Part shown: positions 1 through 62,414 of the stretch, one piece after another | Numbering within the stretch: position 1 is the stretch's first letter | How the letters are laid out: each line of letters begins with the position of its first letter | IMG/VR virus record: IMGVR_UViG_3300030329_003334 | Span: 1 to 64,000 of that record | Reading direction: 5' to 3' (one strand) | DNA from: a virus | DNA: 64,000 nucleotides | Translations under genes and position numbers: made by a program | The notes under the pieces: model-generated | The model's input: the letters and a program-made list of their open reading frames with translations, nothing else | The model's database searches: none | Told to the model about the DNA's origin: nothing

Positions 1-2298
1 ACTCAAGTGGGTATTCCAGTGGTAACTGAAGTTTGTATTCCAAATGGAACTGTTATAGAATTTACTATGTTTGATTCTTTTGGAGATGGTTTATGTGGAT
101 CATGTTATGGAGGTGTAGATGGAACAGTATTAGTACAGACACTTTGTGGAGATACAATATACTCATTGTTACCAGGAAATGCTAATTTTGGTACAGATAC
201 ATCAACAATATATACAGTAGCGCCTTGTACGCCTAATATTATTTATGGTTGTACAACGCCAGGATTTACAGAATATAATCCTCAAGCTACAGTTGATGAT
301 AGTAGCTGTTCTACACCAGTGATAGTTGGCTGTATAGATTCAACATCACCAGATTACGACTCTCTAGCAAATACAATGCATCTAGTACCACAATGTCAAT
401 ATACATTGGTGATTACAGATGAAGCAGAAGATGGCTGGTTTGGAAGCTGGCTAGGTATATTACAAGATACTATAGCATTAGGTCCATTCCAAATGGGGCC
501 AAATGATGGATACTCACAATCATTTACTATTAGTTTAAGCGCTATGAGTCCTGTGGAAGTAATGTTTTTTGCTCCAGGTAACTCATCAACAACAGCAAGT
601 CAATGTGGTTTTTATTTAATAGGGCCAGAAGGAGATACTACAGTATCAGGAGGAACTAACGCATGGACAGATCCAATACTTCAATTCCCTTATAGATATA
701 ATGGAGTTCCTTATTGTGGTGATTATTGTACTGATGGAATATTTGGATGTATGGATTCAACTGCTTTGAATTATGATTCAACAGCCAACATGCCAGATAT
801 ATGTATAGCAAAAGTATTTGGATGTACTAATACGCTAGCTTTTAATTATGATTCTCTTGCTAATGTAGATGATGGATCTTGTGTAGCAATTGTAATAGGT
901 TGTATGGATTCTACAGCGTTTAATTTTAATCCATCGGCAAATACAATGGATTCAGCTTCTTGTGTTCCAGTAATATATGGTTGTATGGATGATACTATGT
1001 ATAACTATAATGCAGCAGCTAATACTTCAGATAGTTCATGTATTCCAGTAATCTTTGGGTGTACTGATGCTTTAGCATTTAATTATGACTCTACTGCGAA
1101 TACAAATAACGGTTCGTGTATTCCGTTTATATATGGATGTACAAATCCAGCAGCTATTAATTATGACCCATTAGCGAATACTGATGATTCAACATGTATA
1201 GGTATAATATATGGATGTACAGATCCTACTATGTATAACTATGATCCGTTGGCAAATACAGATAATGGTAGTTGTATTCCATTTATATATGGCTGTACTG
1301 ATAGTACAATGTATAATTATGACCCAATAGCTAATACTAATAATAATTCATGTATACCATATATATATGGTTGCACTGATCCAAGTGCTTTGAATTACGA
1401 TCCTAATGCTAATACAGATGATTTCTCTTGTATTTTACCGATTTATGGATGTATGGATAGTACAGCCTTTAACTACGATCCTAATGCAAATGTAGATAAT
1501 GGATCTTGTATACCTGTGATATATGGATGTACTAACCCAATAGCTCTTAACTATTGTGACTCTTGTAATACAGATGACTTTAGTTGTATATTACCTATAT
1601 ACGGATGTACAGATAGCACAATGTTTAATTTTAATCCTTTAGCCAATGTTGACAATAATTCTTGTATACCTTTTATTTACGGTTGTACTGATCCATCTAT
1701 GCTCAATTACAACCCAACCGCTAATACTGAAGACTTCAGTTGTATTCCTTACATTTACGGGTGTATGGATAGTACTGCTCTTAACTATGATTCATTGGCT
1801 AATACTGATAATGGTTCATGTGTGGCTGTTGTTGAAGGATGTATGGATGGAACTGCGTACAACTATGATCCTACGGCTAATGTCAATGACTCTAGTTCTT
1901 GCTTATATAGCGCTAATTGTGTCACTGGTGCGGGTAATCCTTATTGGCTCAATGACCCTTGTTATGCCTGGGTAATTGAAGTAGATCCTTATTGCTGTGA
2001 GAATGCTTGGGATAATATATGCCAACTAACTTATAATTATTGTATTGATGGTTGGCCTGAAGATGTAGATTTAAAAACAAGAGAAGAAGCATTAATAATT
2101 TATCCAAATCCAACAAGAGGAATTGTTAATCTATCTCAAGTAGTTGATATAAAAGTATATAGTTCTTTAGGAGAATTAATTATAGAACAAAGTAAAACAA
2201 ATAAAATAGATTTAGAAGAATATAATTCAGGTATATATAATATTATGATATTATATAAAGATAGAAGTATAAATTATAAAATAATTAAGTATGAGTAG
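1..2298 (+). CDS. Repeat-rich surface or fibre protein with T9SS sorting domain (5' partial)
   Basis: The reading frame is open to the left window edge (codons ACT CAA precede the GTG at 7), so the true start lies outside. In order, the visible part holds a cysteine-containing module with FDSFGDGLCGSC, two degenerate repeats around an insert with EDGWFGSW, fifteen tandem 26-residue repeats of the type YGCTDPTMYNYDPLANTDNG..C, a CCENAWDNIC module, and a C-terminal domain from about residue 698 beginning IIYPNPTRG with later VYSSLGE and SGIYNIMI. The last part matches the T9SS type A sorting domain of secreted Bacteroidota proteins; the repeats and modules are also typical of flavobacterial surface proteins. 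Its role in a phage is unknown: a receptor-binding fibre acquired from a host, or a cargo gene exported by the host T9SS. It is on the same strand as the virion genes and 51 bases ahead of the next one. Confidence 0.85.
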   Translation, partial: TQVGIPVVTEVCIPNGTVIEFTMFDSFGDGLCGSCYGGVDGTVLVQTLCGDTIYSLLPGNANFGTDTSTIYTVAPCTPNIIYGCTTPGFTEYNPQATVDDSSCSTPVIVGCIDSTSPDYDSLANTMHLVPQCQYTLVITDEAEDGWFGSWLGILQDTIALGPFQMGPNDGYSQSFTISLSAMSPVEVMFFAPGNSSTTASQCGFYLIGPEGDTTVSGGTNAWTDPILQFPYRYNGVPYCGDYCTDGIFGCMDSTALNYDSTANMPDICIAKVFGCTNTLAFNYDSLANVDDGSCVAIVIGCMDSTAFNFNPSANTMDSASCVPVIYGCMDDTMYNYNAAANTSDSSCIPVIFGCTDALAFNYDSTANTNNGSCIPFIYGCTNPAAINYDPLANTDDSTCIGIIYGCTDPTMYNYDPLANTDNGSCIPFIYGCTDSTMYNYDPIANTNNNSCIPYIYGCTDPSALNYDPNANTDDFSCILPIYGCMDSTAFNYDPNANVDNGSCIPVIYGCTNPIALNYCDSCNTDDFSCILPIYGCTDSTMFNFNPLANVDNNSCIPFIYGCTDPSMLNYNPTANTEDFSCIPYIYGCMDSTALNYDSLANTDNGSCVAVVEGCMDGTAYNYDPTANVNDSSSCLYSANCVTGAGNPYWLNDPCYAWVIEVDPYCCENAWDNICQLTYNYCIDGWPEDVDLKTREEALIIYPNPTRGIVNLSQVVDIKVYSSLGELIIEQSKTNKIDLEEYNSGIYNIMILYKDRSINYKIIKYE
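742..1902 (+). repeat. Fifteen tandem 78-bp repeats coding for 26-residue Cys units
   Basis: Within the left-edge gene, units start at each FGC/YGC/IGC/EGC and run to the next one. Each has two cysteines, a central NYDP or NYNP and an asparagine/aspartate-rich turn (ANTDD, ANVDNG) that looks able to bind calcium. Protein units are much more alike than their DNA, which argues for old duplication and drift rather than recent slippage. Two more degenerate copies lie upstream at about 241-390. Confidence 0.9.
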
Positions 2299-2694: not shown

Positions 2695-2732
2695 GAATTA
2701 AAATAAATATTAATTAAATAAATAAATAAATT

Positions 2733-3332
2733 ATGTCAAAGTATAAAAACCCTTATGGAGGAAATGGTGGCAAAAAAACCACTAACCTCTTTTATAGATC
2801 AGGGATAAGTTCCCTAATAAGCAGAATTGAAAAAATAGAACATGAAGTATTCTGTTGTAAAGACGCAGAGGATATTTTTAGTATAGATGGTACTGCAACA
2901 TTAGTTCGTGAAACACATAACTATGGTACTATTTTATGGGCTGCAGAAGCAGATGCTGAAACACTTACTTTATATGCTCCTCAAAAAGGAGATAAATTAG
3001 ATATTATATTATCAGCAGATACTCATGGTAGTGGTGTTTCTATTACAACTGCAGTATTAAATAGTGCTAGTCATTATTTCTATGGTACTGTTTTTGTTAC
3101 TCAAAGTGATGCTGATGATACTATAGCAATGCAAACAAAATCTGCCGCAGAGAGTTTAAGTGATGTGAATGATCATCTTAATTTAGAAGATGATAATACT
3201 GCTACTGGAGGTCAAAGAGGAAATAAGATAAGTTTGATAGCAACAGCCGATAATGTGTGGCATGTAAGCGCTATATTAAGTACTACTGGTACACCATCAA
3301 GTATAGCAACAATGGCAGCAGCTGCAGTATAA
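2733..3332 (+). CDS. Probable head-decoration or fibre-like structural protein
   Basis: 199 residues. The N-terminal part (GISSLISRIEKIEHEVFCCK) looks like a short anchoring helix ending in a Cys-Cys pair, as in the preceding gene. The remainder is beta-rich and Thr/Ser/Ala-rich, with LVRETHNYGTILWAA and KGDKLDIILSADTHG, typical of small coat or fibre proteins made in tandem in Bacteroidota phages. It precedes the metallophosphoesterase and is separated from it by a clear promoter. Function is inferred from composition and position only. Confidence 0.65.
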   Translation: MSKYKNPYGGNGGKKTTNLFYRSGISSLISRIEKIEHEVFCCKDAEDIFSIDGTATLVRETHNYGTILWAAEADAETLTLYAPQKGDKLDIILSADTHGSGVSITTAVLNSASHYFYGTVFVTQSDADDTIAMQTKSAAESLSDVNDHLNLEDDNTATGGQRGNKISLIATADNVWHVSAILSTTGTPSSIATMAAAAV

Positions 3333-3335
3333 TAG

Positions 3336-3365
3336 TTGCAATTCTGAATTTTTTTATTATCTTTG
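3336..3365 (+). promoter_or_regulatory. Bacteroidota-type promoter
   Basis: TTG at 3336-3338 and TATCTTTG at 3358-3365 are separated by 19 bases. This fits the -33 TTTG / -7 TAnnTTTG consensus used by the housekeeping sigma factor of Bacteroidota. The predicted RNA start, about 3370, lies roughly 20 bases ahead of the ATG at 3391. Confidence 0.65.
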
Positions 3366-3390
3366 CAATAATTAATCAATAATACTGCAA

Positions 3391-4662
3391 ATGGATAATG
3401 TAAAAAAGTTAAGAGAACATCTGCTAACAAAGGGCAGAGACAAAAGTTACAATGAGTTGGCCGAGCTTTATCAGATTAAAGATAAGGCTGGGCACATCTC
3501 AGGAGAAAGAGTAAGAGGAGTATGGAGACGATTAAAAGTTTCTAGAGACCCTCAATCAGATAAGAACCTTCCAAAGGTTGTTAATGAAAACGGTAAACAA
3601 TTTATCGACTACTCTGGATCTGAAATTACAACCTTAGAAGACTTGGTTGATACTATTGGTGTTAACCTTGACTTCTGGGATGTTAAAAGTTTTAGGGCTT
3701 CGACCTGGCAAGATTTTAATGGAGATACAAAGTATGCTGTAAGAGCAAGTTTTGATCAAAGTAAAGAAGCTAGAGATAAAGTACGTGAAGAATTTATAGA
3801 GGAAGCTATTAAGCATTCTCCTAAATATAAACCCGTAAAATACCCTAAAGCTACAAGTAAAGAGAAAGTTGCATATGAAGTTAACTTACCAGATTTACAT
3901 TTAGGTAAGTTAAGTTGGGGAAAGGAAGTAGGACATAAATATGATGTTAATATAGCTAAGTCTATTTTTGTTCAAGCAGTTGATAAGTTATTAGCATATT
4001 CTCAGAACTTTCATATAGATAAGATAATTTTTCCAATAGGAAATGATTTACTTAACTCAGAAGGTTTGACAAGTGCTACAACAAAAGGAACGCCTCAACA
4101 AGATGATGTAAGATGGCAACGATCTTTTACAATGTGTAGAGAGATGCTTGTAGAAGTTATTGATAACTTAAGACTAGTAGCGCCTGTAGAGGTAATAATA
4201 GTTCCAGGTAATCATGATTATGAGCGGATGTTTTACATAGGTGATGCTATATATGCTTGGTATCATAACTGTGATGAGGTGGAAGTTAATAACGATCCTT
4301 CACCAAGAAAGTATACAACTTATGGAGTAAATTTGATTGGTCTCACACATGGTTCTAGCGAGAAGCAAACTGATCTGCCTTTGATTATGGCTTCAGAAAG
4401 ACCAGAGTTATGGGCAAAAGCAACTCATACTGAGTGGCATATAGGTCATCTACATAAAGCCAAATCTATGAACTGGGTAGATATAGATGAGAGGTTTGGT
4501 ACGATAATAAGGATATTACCTTCCTTATCTGGAACAGATGCTTGGCATCATGAGAAAGGGTTTGTTGGTAATACTAGGGCCGCTCAGGCATATGCTTGGG
4601 GAAAAGAAACTGGATACAAAGGTCACTTCCAGGTGAATGTTAATGAATTAAAATTAAATTAA
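3391..4662 (+). CDS. Calcineurin-like metallophosphoesterase with N-terminal helix-turn-helix
   Basis: 423 residues. The metallophosphoesterase signature is complete: LPDLHLGKL (D168, H170), GND (217-219), GNHDYERM (273-280), LTHG (H320) and HIGHLHK (H350, H353, H355). These residues would bind two metal ions and hydrolyse phosphomono- or phosphodiesters. Residues 5-50 (LREHLLTKGRDKSYNELAEL and GERVRGVWRRLK) look like a DNA-binding helix-turn-helix. A clear promoter lies upstream and the next gene starts one base after the stop. Such enzymes recur among structural genes of Bacteroidota phages; the substrate, perhaps nucleic acid or a signalling nucleotide, cannot be read from the sequence. 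Confidence 0.9.
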   Translation: MDNVKKLREHLLTKGRDKSYNELAELYQIKDKAGHISGERVRGVWRRLKVSRDPQSDKNLPKVVNENGKQFIDYSGSEITTLEDLVDTIGVNLDFWDVKSFRASTWQDFNGDTKYAVRASFDQSKEARDKVREEFIEEAIKHSPKYKPVKYPKATSKEKVAYEVNLPDLHLGKLSWGKEVGHKYDVNIAKSIFVQAVDKLLAYSQNFHIDKIIFPIGNDLLNSEGLTSATTKGTPQQDDVRWQRSFTMCREMLVEVIDNLRLVAPVEVIIVPGNHDYERMFYIGDAIYAWYHNCDEVEVNNDPSPRKYTTYGVNLIGLTHGSSEKQTDLPLIMASERPELWAKATHTEWHIGHLHKAKSMNWVDIDERFGTIIRILPSLSGTDAWHHEKGFVGNTRAAQAYAWGKETGYKGHFQVNVNELKLN

Positions 4663-4663
4663 A

Positions 4664-5065
4664 ATGGCAAAAGGATCAGATGATATAACAATGACTCTAA
4701 AGCTTGAAGGTAAAGATATTGGACCTGTACAACTTAATATGCAAGTAAGTAAAACAATAGCTGTTGGTGGAGGTGAATCAGGTATAATGAGCGCTACTTG
4801 TAGTACTACAGGACTAGATATTATTAACCGAGCGGCTGCTGGGAGAACATTTGTTTTTGTACATAATACAGGAACAACAAACGCTATTAAGATTCAAAGT
4901 GCTCCAACTGATGGAAGTACTTATTCACATATAGCAACAATTAATGCTGGCGAGTTTGGAATACTTCCACTTGCAGCAGGTACAATAGCAAATACAAAAT
5001 GTAGATTATTAACAGCTAGTGGAACAACTACTTGTAACTATGCTACATTTGAAATGAATAATTAA
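4664..5065 (+). CDS. Small beta-sandwich structural protein, paralogue 1
   Basis: 133 residues, starting one base after the metallophosphoesterase stop. It shares a pattern with the genes at 5083-5493 and 9331-9729: a beta strand ending in VFVHNTG, then IKIQSA, then an AGEFGILPLAAG strand-turn and a closing CNYATFEMNN. The common core is hhhKN(T/D)G... GG/E(W/F)hh(I/L)P. Small proteins like this lie between the neck genes of many Bacteroidota phages and are probably virion surface or joint proteins; the exact role is not known. Confidence 0.65.
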   Translation: MAKGSDDITMTLKLEGKDIGPVQLNMQVSKTIAVGGGESGIMSATCSTTGLDIINRAAAGRTFVFVHNTGTTNAIKIQSAPTDGSTYSHIATINAGEFGILPLAAGTIANTKCRLLTASGTTTCNYATFEMNN

Positions 5066-5082
5066 TAAATAAATAACAAGAA

Positions 5083-5493
5083 ATGGCAACATTAAAATAT
5101 ACAATCGCAATTACTAGCGATGATGCATTTCCTCAAGCAATATCTTTTTCACGTACTTCTACATTAGATATAGATGGAGATTCTTCAGCTATAGGAGAAA
5201 GAGAGGTGGGAACTACAGCTGAAAGTTTGTTACCTACTACGGATGCAGGTACAATAGCTATTGAGTCTAGAGCTCTTATTTATGTTAAGAATGATGGTAG
5301 TAGTACAGACCCTAATTTAGAGATAGTCGTAATTGATGGAGATACTTCTGGTACTGCAGATATTATAACTATTAAAGGAGGAGAACAGGCAATATTCCCA
5401 TATCAACACGAAGATGGATCGGCTGTTGATATAACAATAAAGGCTAGTACAGGAACAGCATATTATAGTTATGCGTTCTGTGAGTTAACATAA
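5083..5493 (+). CDS. Small beta-sandwich structural protein, paralogue 2
   Basis: 136 residues, 17 bases after its paralogue. Visible shared elements are ALIYVKNDGSS, LEIVVIDGDTSG, the GGEQAIFPYQHEDG turn and the closing YYSYAFCELT. Predicted all-beta. Genes 4664-5065, 5083-5493 and 9331-9729 look like one duplicated family with low identity and conserved core spacing. Probably a virion component because it sits in the structural operon. Confidence 0.65.
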   Translation: MATLKYTIAITSDDAFPQAISFSRTSTLDIDGDSSAIGEREVGTTAESLLPTTDAGTIAIESRALIYVKNDGSSTDPNLEIVVIDGDTSGTADIITIKGGEQAIFPYQHEDGSAVDITIKASTGTAYYSYAFCELT

Positions 5494-5503
5494 AATAATA
5501 ATT

Positions 5504-5755
5504 ATGGCGAAATGTATTCACGGTAACGTGATAGATCAGTGTGGCTTTTGTCGTAAAGAAAGTATGCATAAGATTGTTGAAGGTACTATGTCTACTACAG
5601 AACGACCTAAAGGAGTTTCACGTCCTGATCTCAAAGAGATACTTCAAGATGTAGATCATCAAGCAGAACAAGAAAAGCGAGATGAGATAATGAAGGAATA
5701 TATATTAAATAGTTTTACTACTAAATTAGAAGATAAAGAAGATCAAGGTGAGTGA
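5504..5755 (+). CDS. Small protein with Cys-rich N-terminus
   Basis: 83 residues, not recognised. The start AKCIHGNVIDQCGFCRKES has the arrangement C-x-H...C-x2-C, able to bind one zinc ion; the rest is charged and helical (QAEQEKRDEIMKEYILNSF). The following gene begins inside its last codons (GTG at 5748), so the two are probably translationally coupled. Could be an assembly factor or scaffold-like peptide; no function is claimed. Confidence 0.6.
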   Translation: MAKCIHGNVIDQCGFCRKESMHKIVEGTMSTTERPKGVSRPDLKEILQDVDHQAEQEKRDEIMKEYILNSFTTKLEDKEDQGE

Positions 5756-22504: not shown

Positions 22505-25500
22505 ATGTCTAAAAAACAGCTAAATTATTCAGATCTAGCTAATAAAGCTATTAATAAGATTAATCCTGTTACTAATTTACCTACGGGAACTAGTATTACT
22601 AATAAGACTAGTAATATAATAGATCCATCTCCAGTAAAGACTACTTTAGATTATGCAGGTTTAAGAAATAAATCTAAAACTAGATCTTCTAGTTTATTAA
22701 AACCTATTAAAGCGCCTGGAATTGATTTAAAAGATTATAAATTAGTTCCTGAAGTAAGACTACATCAAGGTCAAGAAACTATTGATAGAATACGTGCTAA
22801 TAATCAACGATGGTATAAACAGTTAGGTAATTTTGTTGGACAAGCTCTTCTTGGAGAAGTAGTTGGAGGAGCTGTTATGGGATTCGGTGCTCTTGCAGAA
22901 CTTCCTAGTTTTATTATAGATTCAGCTCAAGGTAAAAGTGCAGATTTTGATAATGTTTTAATGAGTCTTGGTAATGATCTTAATGAGTGGACTAAAGAGA
23001 AAATGCCTATATATCAAGTTGCTCCTAATAAATCTTGGCAGATGGATGATTTTGGTTGGTGGATGGGTAATGGAGTTTCTATAGCATCTACTTTATCTTT
23101 AATGATTCCAGGTATGGCTGTAGTTAGAGGAGTAGGATGGTTAGGTAAAGCAATAAAAGTAGCTGATAAAATAGGAGATACTACTAAGTATTTTAGTAAA
23201 CTTGCAATTGGGGCTGGAACTATGAGGCATGGTGAGAATATGCGTGAGAGTTTTCAAGTAGCAAACGATGCTAGAAAATTAGCTTTAGATCAATTTAATA
23301 AGCCAGGAAATTATGAAGATTTTATAAATTCTGAGCATGGAAAAGATTTTATTAATTTTACTGGAGCTGATCCTGATGATCCTAATTCTAAAAAGCTAGC
23401 AGCTGATTATATTGCAGCTAAGGCAGGTTGGAGATCTTATAGAGTTAATTCTATTAATATTGTATTTGATGCATTACAAATAGCTCCTATGTTTAGAGGA
23501 TTTAAAGTAGGAACTAGAAATACTTTTGGAACTGCTAGTAAAGTAGCTAAGGCCCAAAGAACTGCATTAGGTAAACCAGATCCAGGAAGATTATCTAGAG
23601 CTTGGTCTTGGTCTAAGAGTACGTTAAATCCAGTTGTTTCTGCAACAGGTAGGCAATTAACAGAGGGTATTGAAGAAGGTATTAACTTTATTGGAGGTGA
23701 AGAAGGTACCTATAAAGCTGAAAAGATTTTAGGATTAGAAAATTCTAAATTTAGTTCTAGATTTGGTGAGTATATAAAAGATGGTCATTTATGGGAATCT
23801 GCATTTTGGGGAGTACTTGGAGGTATAGCTTTTGAAGGAGGTATTGGATTAACTCAAAGATGGACAGGTTCTAATAAGAATGGTCCTCATAGTGTTCCTG
23901 GAAAGATAGCAGAGATACAACAAAGAAAAGCATTTATTACACAAGCTACTAATAAACTTAGAGCTATACAAAATGCTGATCCTAGTTATACAGATATAAC
24001 AGGTGAATATAATTTTCAAAATATTACAGAAGAACAACGACAAGATCTTATAGCTGAAGTTAAAAGAGATATGGCATATAATTTAGGATTAAATGCTGCA
24101 GTAACAGGTAATATAGATTTACTATTAGAACAATTAGAGGATACTAAATTTCAAGAAAGTTTGATAGAATCTGGAGTTGTTGAAAAAGAAGGAATTGATC
24201 AGTTTATAGATGATATTAAAGAAGATGTATTAGAAGCTGAAGATGTTTATAAGAAACATGTGTCTAGATTTATTATGTCTTCTGCAACTGGCGCTGCTAA
24301 AAATTTACTTATAAATAAAAGTGTAGATTTAGATTTACAAAAAAGTAAAATAAATAAGACTAAACAAAAACTAGAAGAAAGAAATACAGAACTTAAACTT
24401 AAAGATACTACATATACTAAGTCTGAAGGAAATATGGACTTAGCTGTTAGAAAAGCAGCATTACAATTATCTAAAGCACAAATGATGATTGAAATGGCTA
24501 GAGCAGATGGGTTAAAGTTTAAATCTGAAGAGGCTAAAACAGAGGCTATTAATAGATATAAAAAGATTATAGAAAATATAGATAGTAAATTAAATGAAAT
24601 TGATTCTCAGGTTAAAGAATCTGGAGAAAAATTACCATCTGTTCAGGGTGTAGATGAACGTATTATAGATAATCAAGCAGCTATAGAAGGATATGATATT
24701 GCTGAAGATGTTATATCAGGTGATATAGCTAGTTTAAAAACTAAAAAAGAAGCAGAAAGAGCAGAAAAAGAAATAAAAGAACAAGCAGAAAGATCAAAAG
24801 AACTACAAGTTAAATTAGCTGAAGAAGCTATTAAGGATAGTTCTTTAGGACTTACTGATAATTCTTCTGCTGTAGAAATTAGAGAAGCTATTGAGAAATT
24901 AAAGGAAACTGAAAAAGGATTTAGAGATAAAGGAATGGAAGAGCCTGCTGATATTCTGTCTAAAAAAATTAAAGAATTAGAAGATAGAATAGGGTCAGGA
25001 GAAAAGAAAAATGAAGTAAAACGTTCTAAGAAAGAGACTAAAGGTGATCAAGCTGATCCTCCTAATCCTAATGAAACTGAAGCAGAAAAACTAGAAAGAT
25101 TAGAAAGACAAGGATTATTACCTAATCAAACTGATAAGGATATTGATGATATGAATCCTACTGTTGAAGATAGTATTACTGAAGATAATACAGAACAACA
25201 AACACAAGACGAAACTGTAGAAGTAATCTCAGAAACTGAAAATAATCCTATTGAATTTCCAGATCCTATATCTATCGGAGAAACTGAGATATTTACTTTT
25301 ATAGGAAGTTTAATTTATAATAGAGATCTTTCTACTAAAGGAGTTGTTCAAGTAAGTGATGCTATAGTTAAAGCATTAAAAGCTATTATGGATCTTAAAG
25401 TAGGCGATAAACTACAAGTAATAGCAGTTAATAAAAATGATATTGAATTACGTGATAGTAAAGGTAATGTTATAGGCTACCTTAATTCAGTTAGAGGTAA

Positions 25501-28500
25501 AGAAGCTCTTCTTAAAAAAGCTAAAAACGCATTAAAAACAGCAGAAAATAAAGAGGAAAAAGAATATCATGCAAGGAGAGTTAAAAGTATAGAAACAGAG
25601 ATTGCAACTATTAAGAGTATACGTGAATCTCTTGATCAGCTATGGACTGATGGTGTTATTAAGGAAGGAGATAGAGTAGGTGAAATGGAAGTTACTGATA
25701 AATTGAGAGGCCAACTTATAACCAATGAAGTAGAAGGAGCAAAACAATTTAGAGGTATAAATCAAGCTTTTGGTAAGAAGATAAGTCTTTATATGAATCA
25801 AAAAGAGACTGTACGCCAATTAGAACCTATATATGATGCTGATGGAAATGCAGTTCCTGTATTTGTTGGTTCTGGAATATCAGCTCCTATGTTTGGACCT
25901 GGTGTTATTTATACATTAGTTCAAGATGATACAGGCGGTCCACCAATGGCAGTACCTCTTTCTACGGCTAATGTAGATGCAAGACATGCTGAGTTTGTAT
26001 GGGAGGCTTTACTTGAATTAGCTAATCGTATGAATAAAAGAGCTGATGGTAAGTATATAAATGATCTTAGAAATAAAGAAATAAAAGATCTTAAAGATCT
26101 TATAAATGAGATAACTCTTACTGGTTCTACAATGGGTATTAAAATCCATAATGAAAAGATTGAGATACCTATGCCTGATGGTAATGTATTACAATTATAT
26201 TTTAGAGAAAAAGGACAAGGTAATATGAAAGGCGCTCCTGTAAAAGGAGGATTTAATTTAAGGATTCTTACAGCTGATGAAGCTTCTGGTAAAGTAGATA
26301 AAGTTAAAGGAAATTTTGTTTATGGTGCTAAAAGTATGGCAGATATTAAAACATTAACTTTAGCAGCTCTTACTAATTTAAAACGTCAAGTAAATAAAAA
26401 GAATTTTACTAAGAAAGGTAAATATAAATCTCCATTAACTGCTAATCTTAAATCTCCAATACTTGAAAATACTGGACAAGAGTATGATAGTTATTATGAT
26501 TACCTAACTCAAGAACAAACTGATGATGGGTTACCTGTATTAAGAACCGATGTAGGAGCTGTTATTAATGAAAAGAATAATGTTATTAGCCATTTTGTAG
26601 ACACAAGAGTTAGAATGTCTAATTTTAAATTTTTAGCAGGTATATCACCTTCAGGTCCTGGTAGAGGAAAAGTAGATGAGGAACTTCCAGGAGGTCCTGG
26701 AGCTCAAGAGATTCAACGAAAAGCGATGGAGAGATTAGCTGAAGAAGAAGAAGCTCCACCAGATGTAACGGCAAAAGATGTATCTGAAGGATTGAAAGAA
26801 AGTTTAGGAGAACAGTTTTTAAATAAAGAGGATATTAAAGGTATGAATATAGATCCTTTTGATGATGCTTTTGATAAATTATCTCGGAGAGATTTAGACG
26901 AATTAAATGATAATCTTGATCGCGCAGTAACAGAGAGAGATATTACAGAAGGATATGATAAAGAAGATGTAGATAGAGCCGAGAAGTGGTTTAAAAAGAA
27001 TCTTCCTCACGTACCTTTTAGTGTAGTTGATGGATTAATTAAAGAAGGTCCTACTGCATTTGGGAGATTTCATAATGCTGCTGTATCTTTATCTAATATA
27101 GCTAAAGAGGGTACTGCATATCATGAAGCATTCCATGCTGTATTTCATATGTATTTAAATCCTGTACAAAGACAGGAGTTATTAAAAGAAGCTAAAGAAA
27201 GATATGGTATAGAATATATGGATCTTAGTACTAATTCAGCTTTAAGAAATAAAGCTTTATTCGCTTTACTTAGAGAGAAATTACCTGGGTATGATGCGAA
27301 TACTCTTAAGAAACTTATAACTAAGAGAGTTATACCTCCTGATGTATATACAACTCCAGGAAATATAGATGAAAATACTGGTATTTTCTTGTTTATGAAT
27401 AAAAAAGAATATGCTGCCAAAAAGAAAGATACAGAAGATGCAATAGCTAGGATGGATCAAAATGCAATACAGCTTGATAAACTCTATTCGGATTTATTAT
27501 TAGGAATACCATTGGTTGATAGAACTAAGGAGGCTATTATGAAAATTGCAGAAAGACTATCAGATTATAGTAGCGAATGGAATTATTTTATTAATATGGC
27601 CAAGGAAATAACTGGATCTGAGGGATTATTGGAATTTATGGCTGAGGCGAAAGATCAATTAAATAAAGAGCTAAATAATATATATGATCGTAGTGCTAAC
27701 TTAGAATCTGAATTAAATCTTTTAAATGAATTCGAACAGCTTGTAAAAAATAAAGAACTTGATGAAATTAGTATAGGAATAAAAGCTTCAGAGATTGTAT
27801 TAGAGGAAAAACTTGCTGATGAGTTTATGACTTATATGCAAACTGGTGTAGAAGACACAAGTTGGACTGGAAGGATTAAGCAGTTCTTTAAAGATTTATT
27901 ACAGTATTTTAAAAATTTATTAGGTATAGGATCTGCTATAGATAGATTATTCTATGATATAAAGACAGCTAAATTTACATATAAGCCTGATGAAGCTGCT
28001 GTAAATCATGCTAAAAAAGTAGTAATGAATAGAGATGTGGAAGGAGAGCGAGTACCTGATAATAATATTCCTTCAGAAGGGTTTACAGATGCTGAAGAGA
28101 GAGCTTTACTAAATAAATTACCTGCTTTATATTATATGGTTAAGCAAAAAATGAATGCTAAAGCTGTTGCAGAAGCAAATCGAACTGGCGAAAGAGTTAA
28201 GCAGCCTGCTTTAGATGATATTAAAGCAGGAGTTATATCGTTATTATCTGCTAGATCTAAAATAGTAGATAATGTTACACATCAAAGAAACTTACTTAGA
28301 ACAATACAAGCTTTAAATAAAAGCGATTCTGATTTATGGAATAAAACTATAGGTATTGTTGCAAGAGATTATCAAGTTACTTCTAATTCTTTAGTTCAAG
28401 GATTAGAAGATGCTATATTAAACGATGAGTTAGAAGGAATGAATTCTGATGATCTTGCAGAAATTAAAAGAAATTGGGATGATGGAACTACAATGGGTAC

Positions 28501-31500
28501 AGATCAGAAAACAAGAGCAACAGGTGAAGTTAGATCTGTTGTTAGAATGACTCAATCAATTGAAGATATAGTTATTAATAAAGATGGAACTGTACAATAT
28601 ATAACTGAAAAAGATGATTTCTTAGGTTTAACTAATTTTTTAGATTTTGATAAAGTATATCCTTATTTAGCTGCTAACTTAGCTGGTATACAGAATGGAG
28701 AACAATTATTATTAAGACTAGAAGAACTCTCTAAATTTGATGTAAGTTTATTAAAACTTAAAAATCAAATAGATCCAGGATACTTAACTCCTAGAGAGCA
28801 AGAATTAAGTACCACAGAAAAACAAGTAATAAAAGAAAAGAAGAAAATATTATTAGCTAAATTTACTGTTACGTTTGCTAAACAAACTCCTACTATGGAT
28901 GTAGATTTAGTATCTGAACGTGGAAAAACAACAGTACATAAACCTTCTAGAGCAAATAATAATGATACTAAAGTTATATTAACAACTAAATGGATTTCTA
29001 ATATATTAACTAAGCATAGAAATAAAGAAGTAGATGTTAAGGCTTTAGCTAATGATATAAAGAAAATAGCTAGTCAGATATATATCGCTAATCAATTAGA
29101 CGATGCAGGACTCAAAAAATTATCTCAAGATATATCTAAAACTTTTGAAAAATTAGGTATAAATCTTATGGAGGGTACAACAAATAAAATGTCAGAAGCT
29201 ATTTTTAACGCTCTTTCTAATCCTGTATTTTTAATAAGGCATAAAACAGTTGGAGGTATTTTACAAAATGTTTTCTTATCGCCATTAGCTTGGGCAGCAG
29301 ATAATTTAGCAAAAAAAGATGTTGTATTTGATCAAGTAGGATCTCTAAGAGCTCTTGCTCAAGCTGTTAGATTTTTTAAATATGATATTATACAAAATAC
29401 TAGTTTAAATGTAGAGAATAAAACTCAATATACTGTTAGTGATTCTAATTTTATGTCTGATTTTTTTGCTAGATGGAAATCTGATAATCCTAGTGAGCGA
29501 TTTGCTTTAGCAGATGATATAGATATATTATTGGATATGCCTAGTATGAAGCATTCTAATTGGCTTAAACTAATGGTTCGGTATAATGAAGATGGTTCTA
29601 TTATGAGAATGGATGATGGAACTCCTATACTAAATGATGAGTTTTTTGAATTATTTGATTATTCTTATGAAGATGGATTAAAAAATACTGATAATAATAA
29701 AGGTATTAAGTATACTAATATGGAAGATGCGGATTGGTATTACTTAAATTTAGCCAAATTTATTAATGGTTTAGGAAGAACGGCAGCAGAAAATTGGTCT
29801 AAATTTCCTCAGCCTATTCCTTCAGATTCGAGTAATATTATATATATAACTGCTCCTAGATATAAAGGACAATTTATATACGAAAAAAAGAAAGCAGAAG
29901 AAGAAGGACAAGAAGATACAGAAGTATCTACTAATATATTAAGAACAGATTCTGGCTTGTCTAAAGCTTTGTTAAATTTAGTTAAACAAGAAGTACATGC
30001 TATGCATCAAGCTCAGTTATTATTATTTGAATTTGATTCTGAAGGTAATATAAAACTAGATGAGTTTGGTAAACCTATTATTAAAGAAGATTTAGATTAT
30101 AGAATTTTACAAAAAGATGTACATTATAAACAAGGTCCTAATGGAGAGAAGTTGATATTAGACGAAGATGGTTATCCGTTAGGAGAAATATTTAAGTTTA
30201 ATAGTTTTGTAGGTTTGAATAATATTATAGGAATACGTTCTCATGTAAGTCCTAGAACAGGTAAGGGTTTTATTAAGAATTTAGGTATAGGTAATGCTGA
30301 GATTAAAGCTATTAATGGAGTTATACAAAATACTTTAACTGATGAAATGTTACAACTTCAAGCTAATCCTGTATTTATGGCTCAAGTTTCTAAATTATGG
30401 GCATTAGCTAAAACTACTTATGCTACTAAAGAACATTTTATTATAGATTTTTTAGGTAATCAAAAAATATCTTTAGTAGAATCTCAAAATTGGTTTGCTG
30501 GTAATATAGCTGAGTTTAAGAATAAACAAGATAGTACTAAGAGAGCAAAACAAACTAATTCTCCTGGTATGAAACAAGCGGGTATATTTACTAATCCTAT
30601 GTTTGGTGTTATTGTTATTAAAGATTTAGTATTACCTTCTCAAGATATAGAAACAATAGCTACTACTCTTAAAGACGATATACAAAAAAGAAAGAATTAT
30701 AAAGGAACTGATGCAGAATTTAATATGGATAATATTATAGCAGAAAATCCTCAAAGTAGTCTTGAACGAGAAGTATATAGAATTGCTCGTCATTATTTAG
30801 CTATTAATACAGGTGATGCTCAGGGTTATGTAAGCTGGGAAAGGTATAAAAGACAGCTTAAAGATAATGCTATGTGGAATGATGATATAGCATTGATTGT
30901 TAAAAAAATAGATAATGATGAGTATATTACTCCTGAAGAGTTAAATGCTATTATGCAGCCTTTAAAAGGATTTTATTATAATAGATCTATTGATAAGAAT
31001 ACAAACAGATTAAGATCTAGACAACTTAAATATTCTACGGTACCTTTGATTCCTCAATTAATTAAAGGCACAGATCTAGAGATTTTAGCAGATAAAATGG
31101 ATGCATATGGTATAGACGAAACTGTATTTGAATCTGCATCTAAAGTAGGTACTTTAAGTGTATTTAAACTTCATGACGAAAATGGTCGTATACTTCCTGA
31201 TATATTTGAAGAGTTAGTTATGGCAGATGAATTCCATGTAGAATTATTAGATAATAATAGATGGATGAGGCAGCAAGATGTTCCTACTAAATTAGAACAA
31301 GTTACTGGAACATTAGGTACTCAGATAAAAGATTTGATTTTTACTAATTTATCTAATGATTCTATATATAAAGTAGCATTTAGTGAAATTTCTTTTACAG
31401 GTAAAGAGTTATTACAAAAGAATCTTGCTATAGCAGCAGCTAATATCGAAGAAGATGCTATGAATCTTTTAATGGAGATTGGGGCTGAAATAGTAGAAGA

Positions 31501-34500
31501 TTCAACAGCAGTTGGAGGTATACGAGTTATATTTAAAAATAATAAGAAAGTAAGAGCTTTATTAATAAGAGAGTTAACTAAGAGAGGACTTAATGATAAT
31601 TATATAAAAGCTATTTTACCTAAACCAGGTACAGATGAATTTAATTTACCTTTATTTTTCTCAGGAATGGCATCTAAATTTGAATCAGTATTACTTTCTT
31701 TATTTACAAATAATGTAACTAATCAAAAGTTTCCAGGATTTACTTCTGTTCAATTTTCTGGAGCATTCTTTAGAACTGGTAAGAAAGCAAGCGAATCTGT
31801 TCAAGCTCTGAATGAAGAGAGAATGCAAGGAGTTGAATATATTGATGGACATGATGCAAGCCAAAGATTAAGAACTACTAGAGATTCTGAATCTGGAATT
31901 ATAACAGCTGAAGTTATTGTATCTCGTCCTAATATGTTTAATCGACCAGATGGTACTCCTATTCCTATTAATGAAATAGATCCTGAAGTATTAGAAATGA
32001 TTGGGTATCGTATTCCTACTGAAGCTAAGCATTCTATGGTAGTATTTAAAGTAGTAGGATTTACTCCTGCAGCTACAGGTGATATAATTATTTTACCTGA
32101 TGATATTATAGCTCAAACTGGATCCGATTTTGATATTGATAAGATGCAAGTTATGGTATATACTTCTGAAAATGGTAAGAAGATTCACTATGATGATGAT
32201 AAAAGTCCTTCGGAAAATAGTAGAGATCAGAGAAATAATGGTTTATTAGATACGTTTATGTCTGTATTAAAAAATAGATATCATTTATCAGAGATGTTAG
32301 ATACAGGTAATTTTGATGATCTTAAAGAGATCAGAGAGGAGATGGATAATATTGATAATATAAAGGAAGAAACATTTGATATATCTTCATTTTCAGGACA
32401 AGATGAAATGCGTAAAAGAAATATATCTGGTAGAATACTTAAAGGTATATCTGCTACATTTAATAAGTTTGGAGCTATTGCTCAAAATACTAAGATGGTT
32501 TTATCTGAACCTTTTATTTGGAAATATAGATTAACAGAAATAGATGAAGCATCTGGTATAGAAATTAAGAGAAATGTAGAAGATTTTAAAGCTAGATATG
32601 GTGAAGAAAATGTTAGAGTAGAAGGTGAGTTTATTATTGTTACACATGAATTAATAGGTTGGACTAGAGACAATACACATTTAAATGCAAATGGTGATTT
32701 AGTTCTTAAACATTCAGCTCAAGGTATTACTGGTGCTGTTGATATTAGTAGTGATCCTACATTTAGTTCTTTTAATGTAAAAGCTTTTACTTATCCTATG
32801 GTAGCTGCAGCTACTTTAGTAGGTATTCCTTGGAAAGATATAGCTTGGTTAACTAAACAACAGATTGTAAAAGAAGTACAAGATAAATACTATGAAGCTA
32901 GAGGTATTCTTGGGGATAATACTCCTGTTCATCAAATAATTAGAGATATTAGAAATTCGTTTTTAAACGTATCTACTAATCCTACTTATCAAGGTAAATT
33001 ATTTGCTTTATTATCTGATGAAAAACAAAAACAAATATTAACTTTATTAAATAGAGCTAAGAAAGGTGATATATCATGGTCAGATTACTTTAATAAAAGA
33101 GCAGAAATAATAGGTATTTCTGAAGAAGTTGTTCCTTTAAGTAAAAACGAATTGAAAGATTTATACTTAACAAGTAAAAATTTCGATAACTTAACTAAAG
33201 AAGAAAAAATAGAGTATTATAAAAAACAATTACAAGTATTAAATAATTTCGAATATTTTAGAAAAATAGGTAGTGCTGTTAGTTCTACAGTATCAATTAC
33301 TAAAGCTGATACTATAGGAGCAGGACCACAAATGACTGTTACTTCTAATTTTGAACGGCAATTAGATTCTCATTTCGATAATGATGGTTCAATACAGGTT
33401 GAATTGGAAAATGGTGAATTAATAGATGCTGCTTTAGCTTTGCATCCTTCTTATTTTGGTAGAGATGCAGAATCTGTATATCCTACTTTAGATACTGTAT
33501 ATAGATTCTCTAATCAATTAAGTATAAAATCTGTAGGACAACATTTTATAGAACAACATCCTAGTTTTAGAATGATACTAGATGGAGTTATGGAAACTTT
33601 AAGAGGAGATAGATTCTTTAAATATGATGATAGAATAGAAGCGATAGTTAGAAATTGGGTAGTATCTTATCTTTTAAAAGATGCAGATATATTTAGTGAT
33701 TTAAGTGATTCTGATAAAAGAGATATACTTGGAATTACTTCTAAAGAAGATAGAAATATAACATCTTTAGCTGAAGATATAGCTAGTATTCAAAAGAGAT
33801 TTCCTAGTTTAGCACAATCAGATGGTCATATATTAGCTTTTTTAAATCCTAAATTATCTGAAAAAGATAAAAAGAATAATAATGGTATAGAATTTATAGA
33901 AGTTAATGAAATACCTAAAGATACTGTTATACAGAATCATATAAGTAGATCTCTTTTAAGAATGTATAGAGGCACTGCATTAGATGCTGATGGTAGATCT
34001 TTACCAGAAGATGTAAGAGAAGAATTACAAAGAATAGCTAAAAAGATTCTTCAATATGAATTTATAACTAGAGGATTAAACTTTGGACGTAATTCTTTAA
34101 CTGAAGTTATTGATACTAATATTAAATTGGACGAGCAATTAGGAGCGCATCTTGAAAGAAAATTACAGAGTTTTAATATGGGTAATGATCCTATGAAAAC
34201 AGGTGAAGAAAATTTAAATGAATTAATTCATAAAATTATACGAGCTAATTGGTTTAGACATGATATGGTTCCTAGAGTTAAAAGAAAAACTACTAAAGTA
34301 TTACGTTGGGATAAGAAGACTAGACAATATCAAGGTAAAGTAGAAACTGTTAGAGGTACAGGTAATTGGGTTCCTAATAGAGATGGTATTATTGTAACTG
34401 AAGGCAGAAAAAAATTAGATAAAGAACCTCCTAATGTTAGAAATTCACAGTATGTATATGTTCCTATATATAAGAAAATTACTCGTGGTAAAAATAAAGG

Positions 34501-40330: not shown

Positions 40331-41704
40331 TTATCTATATCTATCTTTTACTGATTTAGCTACTATTTCAAAATAACCACCATCCTTATTTTTAAATGAT
40401 TTTTCAAACTTACCATCTATCCAAAATAATATTTGATTATTATCGTGATATTTTTCAAAACATTCTGGTAATCTTCCACAATCTAGAACAACAAAGTAAA
40501 CCTTATCAGAATAGTCTTCAATGGGATCGAAATAATCATATCCATCTGTTACTATAATACTTGGTCTATTTTGTTGTTTACTTTTATCTATACATTGCTT
40601 AATATCAGTACCTCCATCAAATGTTTTACTGAAAATTTCACCCTCGTTTAATTTAACTAATTGATCAGTACTGGAAAATAAATATACATCTTTTAATATA
40701 CCTAACTTTAGCATTTTATAAACAAAAATTCTAGATAGTGTTCTCAAAGTGGTAGTTTTTGATTGTGATTCTGTACCATCATTAAAGTTAACTCTGCCGC
40801 ACATTGATCCAGAATCATCTATATAGACATCAAATCCCATATAATATTTTTTTTCATTTACAGATAAATCAGGATATAATACTTCATGTAAAAAGTTTTC
40901 TAAGTTATTAATATCATCTATATCATCTGCATCAAATAAAGAATCTTCATTAGTTTTAGCTATTCCTCCTATAGATTCTGTTGCATTAGTTACTATACTT
41001 TTAACAAATTGGTTTATTTGTCTTTTAGTTATATTAACTTTATTTAATATACCAGAGTCTAATAAAGAATCTACCATTTTTAAATCTGCAGGATGATTTC
41101 CTTTACCTATACCCATATCATCTGCTTTTCTAATACTTTTTCTTATCTTATTCATAGCTCTAGTTGCAGCATTATTTAATCCTTTACCAATATCATTTTG
41201 ATTAATGTCTTCTCCATTTTTTATTAATTGATTTAGATTATCCATTGTTTCTTTAAAGTCATGGCTAGAATTATCATAAAAATATTTTCCTAAAGTATCT
41301 ATAATTACTTTAGCTGCTATATAACTAAAACCAAATCTATCTTGAGTAACCATTCTTAATAAATGATTATCTAAACTAGATAGAAAATGATGAAACCAAT
41401 ACATTTTAGGATTTACTTTAACAATTCTTTTTTCATTAAACCATAACTTAAAGCAATCTAATGCCGCAGATTTTCCATAACTTTGATCAATTACATCGCT
41501 CTCTGATTCTTGATTAACTAAACCAATACCCTCTGAAAATTGTCTATAATATTGTGTATCTCTTAATTGCTTACATAACATATCAGCTATATAATTTTCT
41601 AGATTAGGTTTAATAATAGCATGTTTTTGAACAGATAGATCCACATCGGGATCTATCCATTCATTCAAAATATTATTATTATTTATATTATTTGTGTAAC
41701 TCAT
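40331..41704 (-). CDS. VWA-domain protein, partner of MoxR ATPase
   Basis: 457 residues. The C-terminal von Willebrand A domain (about 288-457) has an intact metal-ion site: YIDDSGSM (D296, S298, S300), GGTD (T366) and IIVTDGYD (D387). The N-terminal part is helical and unrecognised, as in proteins that partner MoxR-type ATPases (ViaA, CbbO types). The ATPase gene lies 17 bases upstream in the operon, so the two probably form a chaperone-like complex acting on a protein or complex. It is the last gene of the minus-strand operon. Target unknown; an early start rich in Asn (NNINNNNILNEW) may be disordered. Confidence 0.9.
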   Translation of the reverse strand: MSYTNNINNNNILNEWIDPDVDLSVQKHAIIKPNLENYIADMLCKQLRDTQYYRQFSEGIGLVNQESESDVIDQSYGKSAALDCFKLWFNEKRIVKVNPKMYWFHHFLSSLDNHLLRMVTQDRFGFSYIAAKVIIDTLGKYFYDNSSHDFKETMDNLNQLIKNGEDINQNDIGKGLNNAATRAMNKIRKSIRKADDMGIGKGNHPADLKMVDSLLDSGILNKVNITKRQINQFVKSIVTNATESIGGIAKTNEDSLFDADDIDDINNLENFLHEVLYPDLSVNEKKYYMGFDVYIDDSGSMCGRVNFNDGTESQSKTTTLRTLSRIFVYKMLKLGILKDVYLFSSTDQLVKLNEGEIFSKTFDGGTDIKQCIDKSKQQNRPSIIVTDGYDYFDPIEDYSDKVYFVVLDCGRLPECFEKYHDNNQILFWIDGKFEKSFKNKDGGYFEIVAKSVKDRYR

Positions 41705-41721
41705 AATTTTTAATTTTTAAT

Positions 41722-42864
41722 TTAAACAATATCATCACTATAATCATTATCATTAGCAGTAGCAAAAGTTACTTCTTTTAAAGTATCTAAAGCTCCATCT
41801 TGCCAAAATTGTAATAGATTAGGTTTAGACTTAAATTTATCGCGGTAGTATATTATTAAATCATCACTCGCTTTTTCATTGAAATGATTATTTAAATCTG
41901 CAGTTAATTCTTCTACTTTACGTTTATAAGATCTCATTTTACCTAATTCGTCTAAATCTTCTAAAATATTAGATACATATACTTCTGTATAATTCTGATT
42001 ATTTCCTGCTATAACACCTTCTAGCCCTTGAATTTTAGTTCTCAAATTGTTTTCTTTCTTTGTCTCTAATTTACTTGAAAGATCTGCAACGTGAGAAGGA
42101 GCTATAAGTTCACAACATTTCATTAAAGCTTCTATTTCATCTACTTCATAGATTAATTTTATCGCTTTAACTAAATTATGTAAATATGATGCAGTTCTAT
42201 CTGATACAGCTTCATATACTACTTTAATAAATTTAACGATGTTTTTATCACTAATTTGTTCTTTATTTATATCCTCTTTTGTAGGCATAGGAATATCCAA
42301 ATCTATAACTTTATTTTTCCATATGTCTTTAAATTGTCCTGCACCAACTCTTTCAACTTTTTGAGTTAATACAAATCTATCCCAAAAAGGATTTTCTAAT
42401 TCGTCTTCAGGTATTACATTACATGATCCAGCAAATACCGTCCAATCGCATTTCTTTATTTCATCTCCATAAAATAAAGCTTTTTCTCTCATTACAGATA
42501 ATAAAGTATTTCTTACTCCAGAAGTACCTTTATCTACCTCATTAATTAATAAAAATTCAGCATCTGCTATAGGCGCATCTATTTTATATTCTTTATCCTC
42601 CATTAAAGCTTTCATGTTTACTCTACCCTTAATTTCAGAAGTTTTAGTACCTTCATCTAATTCTATAATAAAAGTTTTATCTTTTACTAGATCAGAGTTA
42701 TAGTTATACTTTGCTGCAGCATAATCTATTAAGCATTGAGTTTTTCCAACACCTGGTTCTCCTAATAATAAAACGGGAAGTTGTGTTAACTCCCCGAGCG
42801 CTAGTACTTTAAATGTTTCTTCTTTTCCTACTAATCTTGTTTTAATTTTTCTTATTGTTGTCAT
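41722..42864 (-). CDS. MoxR-type AAA+ ATPase
   Basis: 380 residues. Walker A GEPGVGKT (35-42), Walker B FLLINEVDK (104-112, with NE where most AAA+ proteins have DE), sensor 1 FAGSCN (N149) and arginine finger region NPFWDRF (R163) are all visible. Order and spacing match MoxR ATPases. It overlaps the upstream nuclease gene by 23 bases and is followed by a VWA gene, the classical MoxR-VWA arrangement. MoxR/VWA pairs typically remodel or insert cofactors into partner proteins; in the phage it may modify a replication or host complex. The Asn in Walker B is worth noting, but the catalytic Glu109 is kept. Confidence 0.9.
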   Translation of the reverse strand: MTTIRKIKTRLVGKEETFKVLALGELTQLPVLLLGEPGVGKTQCLIDYAAAKYNYNSDLVKDKTFIIELDEGTKTSEIKGRVNMKALMEDKEYKIDAPIADAEFLLINEVDKGTSGVRNTLLSVMREKALFYGDEIKKCDWTVFAGSCNVIPEDELENPFWDRFVLTQKVERVGAGQFKDIWKNKVIDLDIPMPTKEDINKEQISDKNIVKFIKVVYEAVSDRTASYLHNLVKAIKLIYEVDEIEALMKCCELIAPSHVADLSSKLETKKENNLRTKIQGLEGVIAGNNQNYTEVYVSNILEDLDELGKMRSYKRKVEELTADLNNHFNEKASDDLIIYYRDKFKSKPNLLQFWQDGALDTLKEVTFATANDNDYSDDIV

Positions 42865-43903
42865 ATTTTTTAAATTGATTTAAGTTAATAATTCCACTGT
42901 TGTTATATACTTCTTTCTTTATTTCCCAGTTTTTAGTTTCTTGATGCCATTCTACCTCACTAATTAGTTCGGTTACACCTTTTACTCTTTTACCAGTATA
43001 TAAAGATTTGCCTCCGTTCCATCCTACTTCTAGATCTTCAGAGCTAGTTTTAAATATTAATGGTTGATTATTGCAAGCAGTTTCTGCAACTATAAATAAA
43101 AAAGGTTTTATTTCATATCCAGGATATAATATAGATAGATCTTTTTCTATAAATTTACTATAAATAGCTGCTTGTCTATAATAAGCATATTTTACATAAC
43201 TAGATTCAAAACTATATACAGGTTTTCCTGTAGTTTTTAAATCTATTGCTTGAATAGTTTTAAGATGATGATCTATAATAACTTTATCTATCATTCCTCT
43301 AATTATATACTGTTTTCCTGACTCAGTTATATATTCCATTTCAAATTCCAGCTGATTCTTTATTTCTTGTAAGGGCCCAGCTGTAATAAAATATTTACCA
43401 GTGTGCTCGGATGAAGTTAACATATTCACCATATTAACAGTTTGATTATATTCGTCTTCAGATAAGATAGTTTTATCTGTATTTTCTATTATAAAATTAA
43501 CATACTCTTGAATATTAGGATCTTCAAACTTTTTAATTACGGATTCAAATTTAATTTTAAATCCAGATGCTCCATATGCCATACCTCTTATTTCTTCTTC
43601 TAAAAATGAATCTTCAGCACAGTCTCTGTCTTTTTGCGCAGCAATTTTATACTTTATATACGCACTAATAAAATCTCCCATCATTCCACCAGGGGCTTCT
43701 AATTTAGAGACAACATATCTATTTTTAAATTCATCGGGCTCAGTAAGCATACAATCTACTGCTGATCCTTTTCTAAAAAAAGTTGTATCCTCTTCTTTAG
43801 GATTAAGTATATGTTCTCTATAAAATGTTGGACTATAATCCAATAAATTTAATGAAGAAAAACTTAACTTATGATTTTCTAATGTTTTTATTTGTTTTTC
43901 CAT
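42842..43903 (-). CDS. PD-(D/E)XK nuclease (RecB/RecE-type)
   Basis: 353 residues. Near the start, FRKGSAVDCMLTEPDEF is the leading motif of phage exonucleases of this fold. The catalytic core is visible as FEMEY (E188/E190), IRGMIDKVII (D206) and AIDLKTTG (D221, K223), followed by YYRQAAIYSKF. It would degrade DNA ends for recombination or host DNA turnover. crAss-like phages encode such a nuclease in the replication block. It starts after the RusA-like gene with a one-base gap and overlaps the ATPase gene. Confidence 0.85.
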   Translation of the reverse strand: MEKQIKTLENHKLSFSSLNLLDYSPTFYREHILNPKEEDTTFFRKGSAVDCMLTEPDEFKNRYVVSKLEAPGGMMGDFISAYIKYKIAAQKDRDCAEDSFLEEEIRGMAYGASGFKIKFESVIKKFEDPNIQEYVNFIIENTDKTILSEDEYNQTVNMVNMLTSSEHTGKYFITAGPLQEIKNQLEFEMEYITESGKQYIIRGMIDKVIIDHHLKTIQAIDLKTTGKPVYSFESSYVKYAYYRQAAIYSKFIEKDLSILYPGYEIKPFLFIVAETACNNQPLIFKTSSEDLEVGWNGGKSLYTGKRVKGVTELISEVEWHQETKNWEIKKEVYNNSGIINLNQFKKYDNNKKN

Positions 43904-62359: not shown

Positions 62360-62391
62360 TTTTGGTAATTAAAATAAATGTTATATATTTG
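62360..62391 (+). promoter_or_regulatory. Promoter of the right-hand plus-strand operon
   Basis: TTTTG (62360-62364) and TATATTTG (62384-62391) with 19 bases between them match the Bacteroidota consensus well. RNA would start near 62396, about 19 bases before the ATG at 62415. Confidence 0.75.
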
Positions 62392-62414
62392 CATTGAATT
62401 GCTATATAATAGTT

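Follow-up and report, generated by a model that had tools for sequence, protein, structure and literature searches.

The window, by which we mean the whole 64,000-nucleotide stretch of DNA analyzed here, is part of a 94,021-base IMG/VR record whose remaining part holds the terminase, the portal and the major head protein. An open reading frame at 3391-4662, on the plus strand, starts with ATG and encodes a protein of 423 amino acids; its coordinates and those of the associated features are collected in Table 1. All listed open reading frames longer than 110 amino acids from 7 to 40230 are likewise on the plus strand, and PHROGs profiles labelled tail or virion structural matched three of the ten neighboring proteins scanned.

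The phage is a marine, Crassvirales-like phage of Bacteroidota and a relative of the gut virus crAssphage. Its portal matched 157 phage records; those listed are twelve uncultured "cr" phages obtained from human faeces, with 36-38% identity. The 4,528-amino acid open reading frame at 22505-36091 contains a crAss-like virion RNA polymerase core: over 582 residues it is 28% identical (E = 1e-42) to gp77 of phi14:2, a phage classed in Crassvirales, and GSDFDIDKM is common to both proteins. On the basis of this motif, we equate gp77 with the virion RNA polymerase that the literature calls gp66 (PMC10770324). In Crassvirales, according to a review, transcription of the early and middle genes is the task of an injected viral RNA polymerase, and the late structural genes are probably left to the host RNA polymerase (PMC10136315). 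The crAss-like genes described in another include a metallophosphatase and, in the structural block, a PD-(D/E)XK nuclease (PMC7886860).

Several other genes were noted. Window positions 7-2298 encode cysteine-rich GCTxPxAxNYDP repeats followed at the end by a sorting domain for type IX secretion (Por_Secre_tail, 35.3 bits against a cutoff of 27), and relatives carry similar genes. L013:7548-11420 (record 86548-90420) encodes 1,290 amino acids that include SprB repeats (49.6 bits against a cutoff of 28) and, close to the C-terminus, a HINT/intein-like domain (PT-HINT, 28.3 bits, cutoff 27.7), and L013:12736-13104, located in that half of the record which carries the structural genes, encodes a Staphylococcal-nuclease homologue (PF00565, 42 bits). 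On the minus strand, 40331-42864 encodes a MoxR-like ATPase (bpMoxR, 78.4 bits), adjoined by an open reading frame that is vWA-like by eye and has no Pfam match, and 42842-43903, in the replication block, encodes a PD-(D/E)XK-like nuclease (DUF3799, 29.4 bits, cutoff 26).

Table 1. Window positions of the phosphoesterase gene and of the features in and around it.
Feature	Position	Strand	Basis
Candidate cassette: promoter, leader hairpin and gene	3329..4668	+	blastn blocks, 20-nt identity profile, sharp edges on both sides
-33-like TTG element	3336..3338	+	TTG or TTTG at the equivalent position in L002, L003, L005 and L010
Hairpin 5' strand, coinciding with the promoter (predicted RNA)	3337..3367	+	RNAalifold on five sequences, pair counts
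-7 element TATCTTTG (consensus TAnnTTTG)	3358..3365	+	orthologue conservation; consensus from PMC7366714
Hairpin 3' strand, start codon and first codons (predicted RNA)	3388..3419	+	RNAalifold, accessibility, folding z, pair counts
Whole gene, phrog_704 member	3391..4662	+	open reading frame listing, PHROGs profile match
N-terminal helix-turn-helix, residues 1-50 (predicted; to about 55)	3391..3540	+	AlphaFold helices, Lrp/AsnC-type matches
Middle alpha/beta domain, residues 60-145	3568..3825	+	AlphaFold; best Z 6.2, to unrelated proteins
Metallophosphoesterase domain, residues 156-423, with ligands D168, H170, D219, N274, H275, H320, H353 and H355	3856..4659	+	profile, structure comparison, alignment of relatives

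The catalytic domain and its family

The 423-residue protein is a metal-dependent phosphoesterase of phrog_704 and probably belongs to the Mre11/PolD-DP1 fold group. Residues 13-419 matched positions 15-388 of the 390-position phrog_704 profile, labelled "DNA repair exonuclease", with an E-value of 1.6e-71; a weak match to phrog_284, "exonuclease", followed (1.3e-19). With Pfam Metallophos (PF00149) the protein scored 20.9 bits, 0.6 bits short of the 21.5-bit cutoff. Among 48 relatives, all matched phrog_704, and 29 matched PF00149 at E ≤ 0.01. Calcineurin-like metallophosphoesterases are characterized by the motifs DxH, GD, GNH, H and GHxH, and the protein carries this set with GND replacing the textbook GD of motif II. 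In the alignment of the 48 relatives, D168, D219, N274, H275, H320 and H355 are invariant, H170 is present in 47, and 42 have H353, the other six having D there.

The AlphaFold model of the protein had a mean pLDDT of 88. For residues ~147-423, the best structural matches were PolD DP1 (Z 14.1) and Mre11 (Z 13.9), tied with the non-nucleases MJ0936 (Z 13.3) and LpxH (Z 13.2), so that the fold alone leaves the substrate unnamed. The catalytic domain resembles those of Mre11/SbcD and PolD DP1 in its predicted fold, but the protein has no significant sequence match to them (the best PDB profile match had an E-value of 0.18) and carries an N-terminal module instead, and a Foldseek search of the PDB returned no match at E ≤ 0.001. 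Phage T5 A1 is, by annotation and review, also a calcineurin-like enzyme; we rejected it as a homologue, as profile comparison gave a probability of 0.25% and no detectable similarity. The enzyme would most likely be a DNA nuclease, DNA being the best guess for its substrate.

Variation of the N-terminal module among relatives

In the AlphaFold model, the N-terminus forms helices at residues 2-14, 20-26 and 38-49, and residues 1-160 modelled separately had a pLDDT of 74.5. Of the 50 structural matches listed for this second model, 13 are regulators, aligned with the first 52-56 residues. Four of these 13 are titled Lrp or AsnC, and the others are presumably of the Lrp/AsnC family as well. The best Z was a modest 5.1, and 9w4v superposed with an rmsd of 2.0 over 44 residues. 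Pfam gave no helix-turn-helix match in the N-terminus of the window protein, and a comparison of the DNA encoding it with phages yielded no match. The N-terminus is predicted, from the model, to be an Lrp/AsnC-like helix-turn-helix, and we infer that it would bind DNA.

This architecture is widespread: tblastn matches occur in 2,089 of 50,697 phage records, all with less than 60% identity, and 136 of them span 80% or more of the query. The N-termini of the 48 relatives comprised three with a zinc-ribbon-like cysteine pattern, nine of fewer than 35 residues and 36 of some other kind. One of the nine short ones, L077, has a core 82-89% identical to that of four members having the module, and the lack of a module there probably reflects a misplaced start site or a truncation. 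Pfam cutoffs were passed by HTH_23 in L068 and by Sigma70_r4_2 in L079; zinc-ribbon matches in relatives were below cutoff, and L064 and L090 gave no helix-turn-helix match. PHROGs assigned a D5-like regulator in two relatives and a transposase in one. The zinc-ribbon protein L033 shares 57% of its core residues with L038, which lacks the ribbon, and L043 and L078 share 55% of theirs with N-termini that are not alignable. An apparent exchange of the N-terminal module, between various helix-turn-helix types, a zinc ribbon and none, is therefore visible in the phrog_704 sequences. No fixed type of neighboring gene was seen beside phrog_704 genes in nine annotated regions of other phages, and a search of bacterial genomes by peptide patterns returned 31 stretches and no true relative.

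The window protein agrees with phrog_704 in its nearly full-length match, its invariant ligands and its N-terminal, middle and catalytic layout; it differs in having a helix-turn-helix of its own type and a leader hairpin found in its own clade only. A preliminary description had called the protein a metallophosphoesterase with all metal ligands, fused to a DNA-binding-like N-terminus. The enzyme is borne out by the phrog_704 match and by seven of eight ligand columns being kept in 47 or 48 of 48 relatives, and the predicted helices and Lrp/AsnC-type matches favor the N-terminal assignment. The word "fused" is right in that an N-terminal module is present and overstates its novelty, since phrog_704 covers residues 13-419 and the N-terminal region belongs to the family.

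Promoter and predicted leader hairpin

The putative promoter has the layout TTG-N19-TATCTTTG, which is of Bacteroidota type, and ends 25 nt before the ATG. The published Bacteroidota consensus comprises a -7 element, TAnnTTTG, and a TTTG near -33; in Flavobacterium johnsoniae, the -33 motif was not detected (PMC7366714). In more distant orthologues the TTG is unclear. The box TANNTTTG occurs at -48 to -18 in 10 of 12 orthologues, which are related and include two nearly identical ones (L005 and L010; L004 was excluded, its leader being equal to that of L003), vs. 16 of 253 other genes on the same contigs, among which the 67 with gaps of at least 30 nt account for seven. Another orthologue, identified later (G004, L166), has no such box, which brings the count to 10 of 13. 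Across the window and the two remaining pieces of the record, the box lies within 70 nt of 8 of 92 gene starts; the box alone is therefore weak evidence, and its conservation carries the weight. E. coli-type promoter patterns were no commoner than in shuffles. In the window region 62362-62792, a second promoter-like site, TTG-N-TATATTTG, directly precedes the open reading frame 62415-62792, whose leader is also folded (z -2.03, 23 cross pairs).

The consensus fold of the window sequence and four close relatives pairs the promoter strand with the start codon region. Within this clade, 4 of 31 pairs show double-sided changes, a count reached by 16 of 500 shuffles, and 89.5% of cells pair, vs. 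43-59% when the partner is slid by one to three columns; the structure was derived from the same sequences as these pair counts, which favors it. Folding of the region from -56 to +35 gave a mean z of -2.32 for 12 leaders vs. +0.22 for 252 other genes, and values of -1.5 or below for 8 of the 12 vs. 17 of the 252 (Mann-Whitney p 3e-7, which is overstated, as the leaders are related to one another). In a separate run with 11 leaders, omitting L010, ten had z-scores between -1.24 and -4.78, and L029 showed no excess folding (z 0.06). The window leader itself scored -1.57, with 14 of 200 shuffles as good. The leader folding test was chosen after the sequences had been seen, and the hypothesis and the test share data.

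The start region (-12 to +3) is predicted to be unpaired with a value of 0.40 in read-through RNA vs. 0.77 when the RNA starts at -20; for other genes, the corresponding values are 0.62 and 0.71. RNA starts 4-8 nt after the TTTG opened the start region in nine of nine leaders. The 31-nt leader alone was rejected as a stable hairpin, as it gave weak folds (window z +0.38 vs. shuffles), and the folding signal arises only when the promoter and the first codons are included. An alignment of ten leaders gave no consensus fold; outside the close clade, the evidence for conservation is therefore that each leader folds separately. A hairpin leader as a trait of the whole family was likewise rejected, the mean z of 40 other phrog_704 genes being 0.00; the leader hairpin was detected in the clade of the window only. 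No known RNA family was found in 3200-3600, and no terminator-like site was found on the plus strand between the upstream gene and 3391-4662. Folding thus predicts that the promoter strand pairs with the start codon region. This control region, in which the promoter forms the hairpin arm that would cover the start codon, is the new part of the locus, the enzyme architecture being already known; in the open-access literature we found no description of the N-terminal swaps in this family or of the leader seen here.

As for the expression of the gene, its location within a virion operon, as given in the preliminary description, agrees with the uniform strand and the structural neighbors, and the box kept in 10 of 12 orthologues argues for the host-type promoter of its own that had been proposed. 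The further step from a host-type promoter to early action is not supported and was rejected as an argument: given that late structural genes of Crassvirales are probably read by the host RNA polymerase, such a promoter fits late expression at least as well. A role apart from assembly is plausible, as the gene and its promoter together behave like a separate unit within the virion operon. The preliminary description also proposed action on DNA or nucleotide signals; the fold, which scores alike with DNA nucleases and other phosphoesterases, does not choose between the two.

Probable cassette exchange and interpretation

By blastn, the window shares a block at 3329-4668 with L003 (91.6% nucleotide identity) and one at 3329-4672 with L005 (88.6%), outside which identity is near chance; L002 is similar across 2696-5566 and shows no edge. 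Compared with two downstream genes, which offer 25-69 four-fold sites each, the gene showed a lower four-fold-site divergence between the window and L003 (0.20 vs. 0.54-0.60), the window and L005 (0.28 vs. 0.45-0.58), L003 and L005 (0.28 vs. 0.49), and L007 and L009 (0.35 vs. 0.51-0.65). This contrast was absent for the window and L002 (0.21 vs. 0.19-0.33) and for the window and L007 (0.56 vs. 0.48-0.50). The cassette has likely been exchanged by recombination between relatives, and selection on synonymous sites may also account for the low four-fold divergence. Presence of the gene varies: 5 of 12 records found by the head protein hold it, and five hold the 8351-like gene. One of the latter five, G008, lacks the phosphoesterase gene and has 5504-like, 7232-like, 7932-like and 8351-like genes in order, with a left-flank gene weakly like 2733.

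We consider it slightly more likely than not (roughly 0.55) that the locus is an exchangeable cassette for a DNA-directed nuclease whose expression depends on a promoter-in-hairpin gate. The cassette would be an accessory one, set among the structural genes of a Crassvirales-like phage, in which an exchangeable N-terminal module, here the Lrp/AsnC-like helix-turn-helix, would aim the phrog_704 enzyme at DNA. Expression of the gene would be gated in cis, the mRNA segment copied from the promoter pairing with the start codon region. Read-through transcripts from the upstream virion genes would fold up and be poorly translated; transcripts from the gene's own promoter, which would lack the 5' strand, would leave the start codon open, and the enzyme would be made mainly from them. 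Both the read-through transcription and the translational silencing are what we infer from the predicted fold.

A similar design is known from T4. In gene e and I-TevI, an RNA structure covers the translation start, and its 5' strand derives from the promoter region, such that read-through early transcripts are silent and late transcripts from the gene's own promoter, lacking the 5' strand, are translated; RNA structure has also been shown to reduce initiation in mobE of Aeromonas phage Aeh1 and is implicated for T4 segB (PMC3014915). The window gene shares the promoter-in-hairpin design of e and I-TevI as a prediction, and it differs from all four in having a Bacteroidota sigma-A-type promoter instead of a T4 late one and another nuclease fold.

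Among the competing explanations, the one that survives best, although we regard it as unlikely, is an ordinary repair or recombination exonuclease of the Mre11/SbcD kind, which would work on the ends of the phage DNA while late replication and packaging proceed, the leader folding being incidental to an AT-rich promoter. The PHROGs label, the presence of Mre11 and PolD DP1 at the top of the structural list and the location in the late region, whose genes are probably read by the host polymerase, all fit this explanation. However, the z-scores against dinucleotide shuffles and same-contig genes exclude composition alone as the source of the folding, and accessory presence and block exchange would be odd for a core repair function.

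Quite improbable is a stronger version of the nuclease reading, a homing-endonuclease-like mobile nuclease built on the metallophosphoesterase fold, with an exchangeable DNA-recognition head, a cassette that spreads by cutting genomes without the gene and a hairpin leader that silences virion-operon read-through. Known homing endonuclease folds are LAGLIDADG, HNH, GIY-YIG and others. The window gene resembles free-standing homing endonuclease genes in its modular, presumably DNA-binding part, in the empty site of a relative and in its predicted hairpin-gated expression; unlike them, it encodes a metallophosphoesterase only, with no known homing fold, and occupies one fixed place.

We give little credence to a counter-defence role, in which the enzyme would break down a nucleotide signal, cyclic or other, and be made from its own host-type promoter. 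Some metallophosphoesterases are indeed nucleotide phosphodiesterases, the Z-scores of MJ0936 and LpxH lie within 1 of those of the nucleases, and accessory genes typically have a promoter to themselves and a patchy distribution. Yet N-termini of DNA-binding type recur in the phrog_704 family, PADLOC gave no match, and the NCBIfam anti-phage phosphoesterase model scored 13.9 bits against a cutoff of 420; the last two results also led us to reject membership in a defence system. Equally doubtful is the reading that the inverted repeat overlapping the -7 box serves as a DNA operator for self-repression, as in I-TevI, instead of an RNA gate: dyad scores of at least 17 in 4 of 12 leaders vs. 1 of 253 other genes and the predicted helix-turn-helix favor it, but the dyad sequence varies among orthologues whose helix-turn-helix is nearly identical, which base pairing fits better than a fixed operator, and the combined p of 8e-4 is post hoc. 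An operator and an RNA gate could also act together.

If the gated-cassette reading is right, the hiding of start codons by a promoter strand in T4 has a Crassvirales-like counterpart with Bacteroidota promoters, and the widespread phrog_704 proteins are nuclease cores with interchangeable DNA-recognition heads. Should the homing version be true, a homing-type metallophosphoesterase nuclease would add a fold to the known homing endonucleases.
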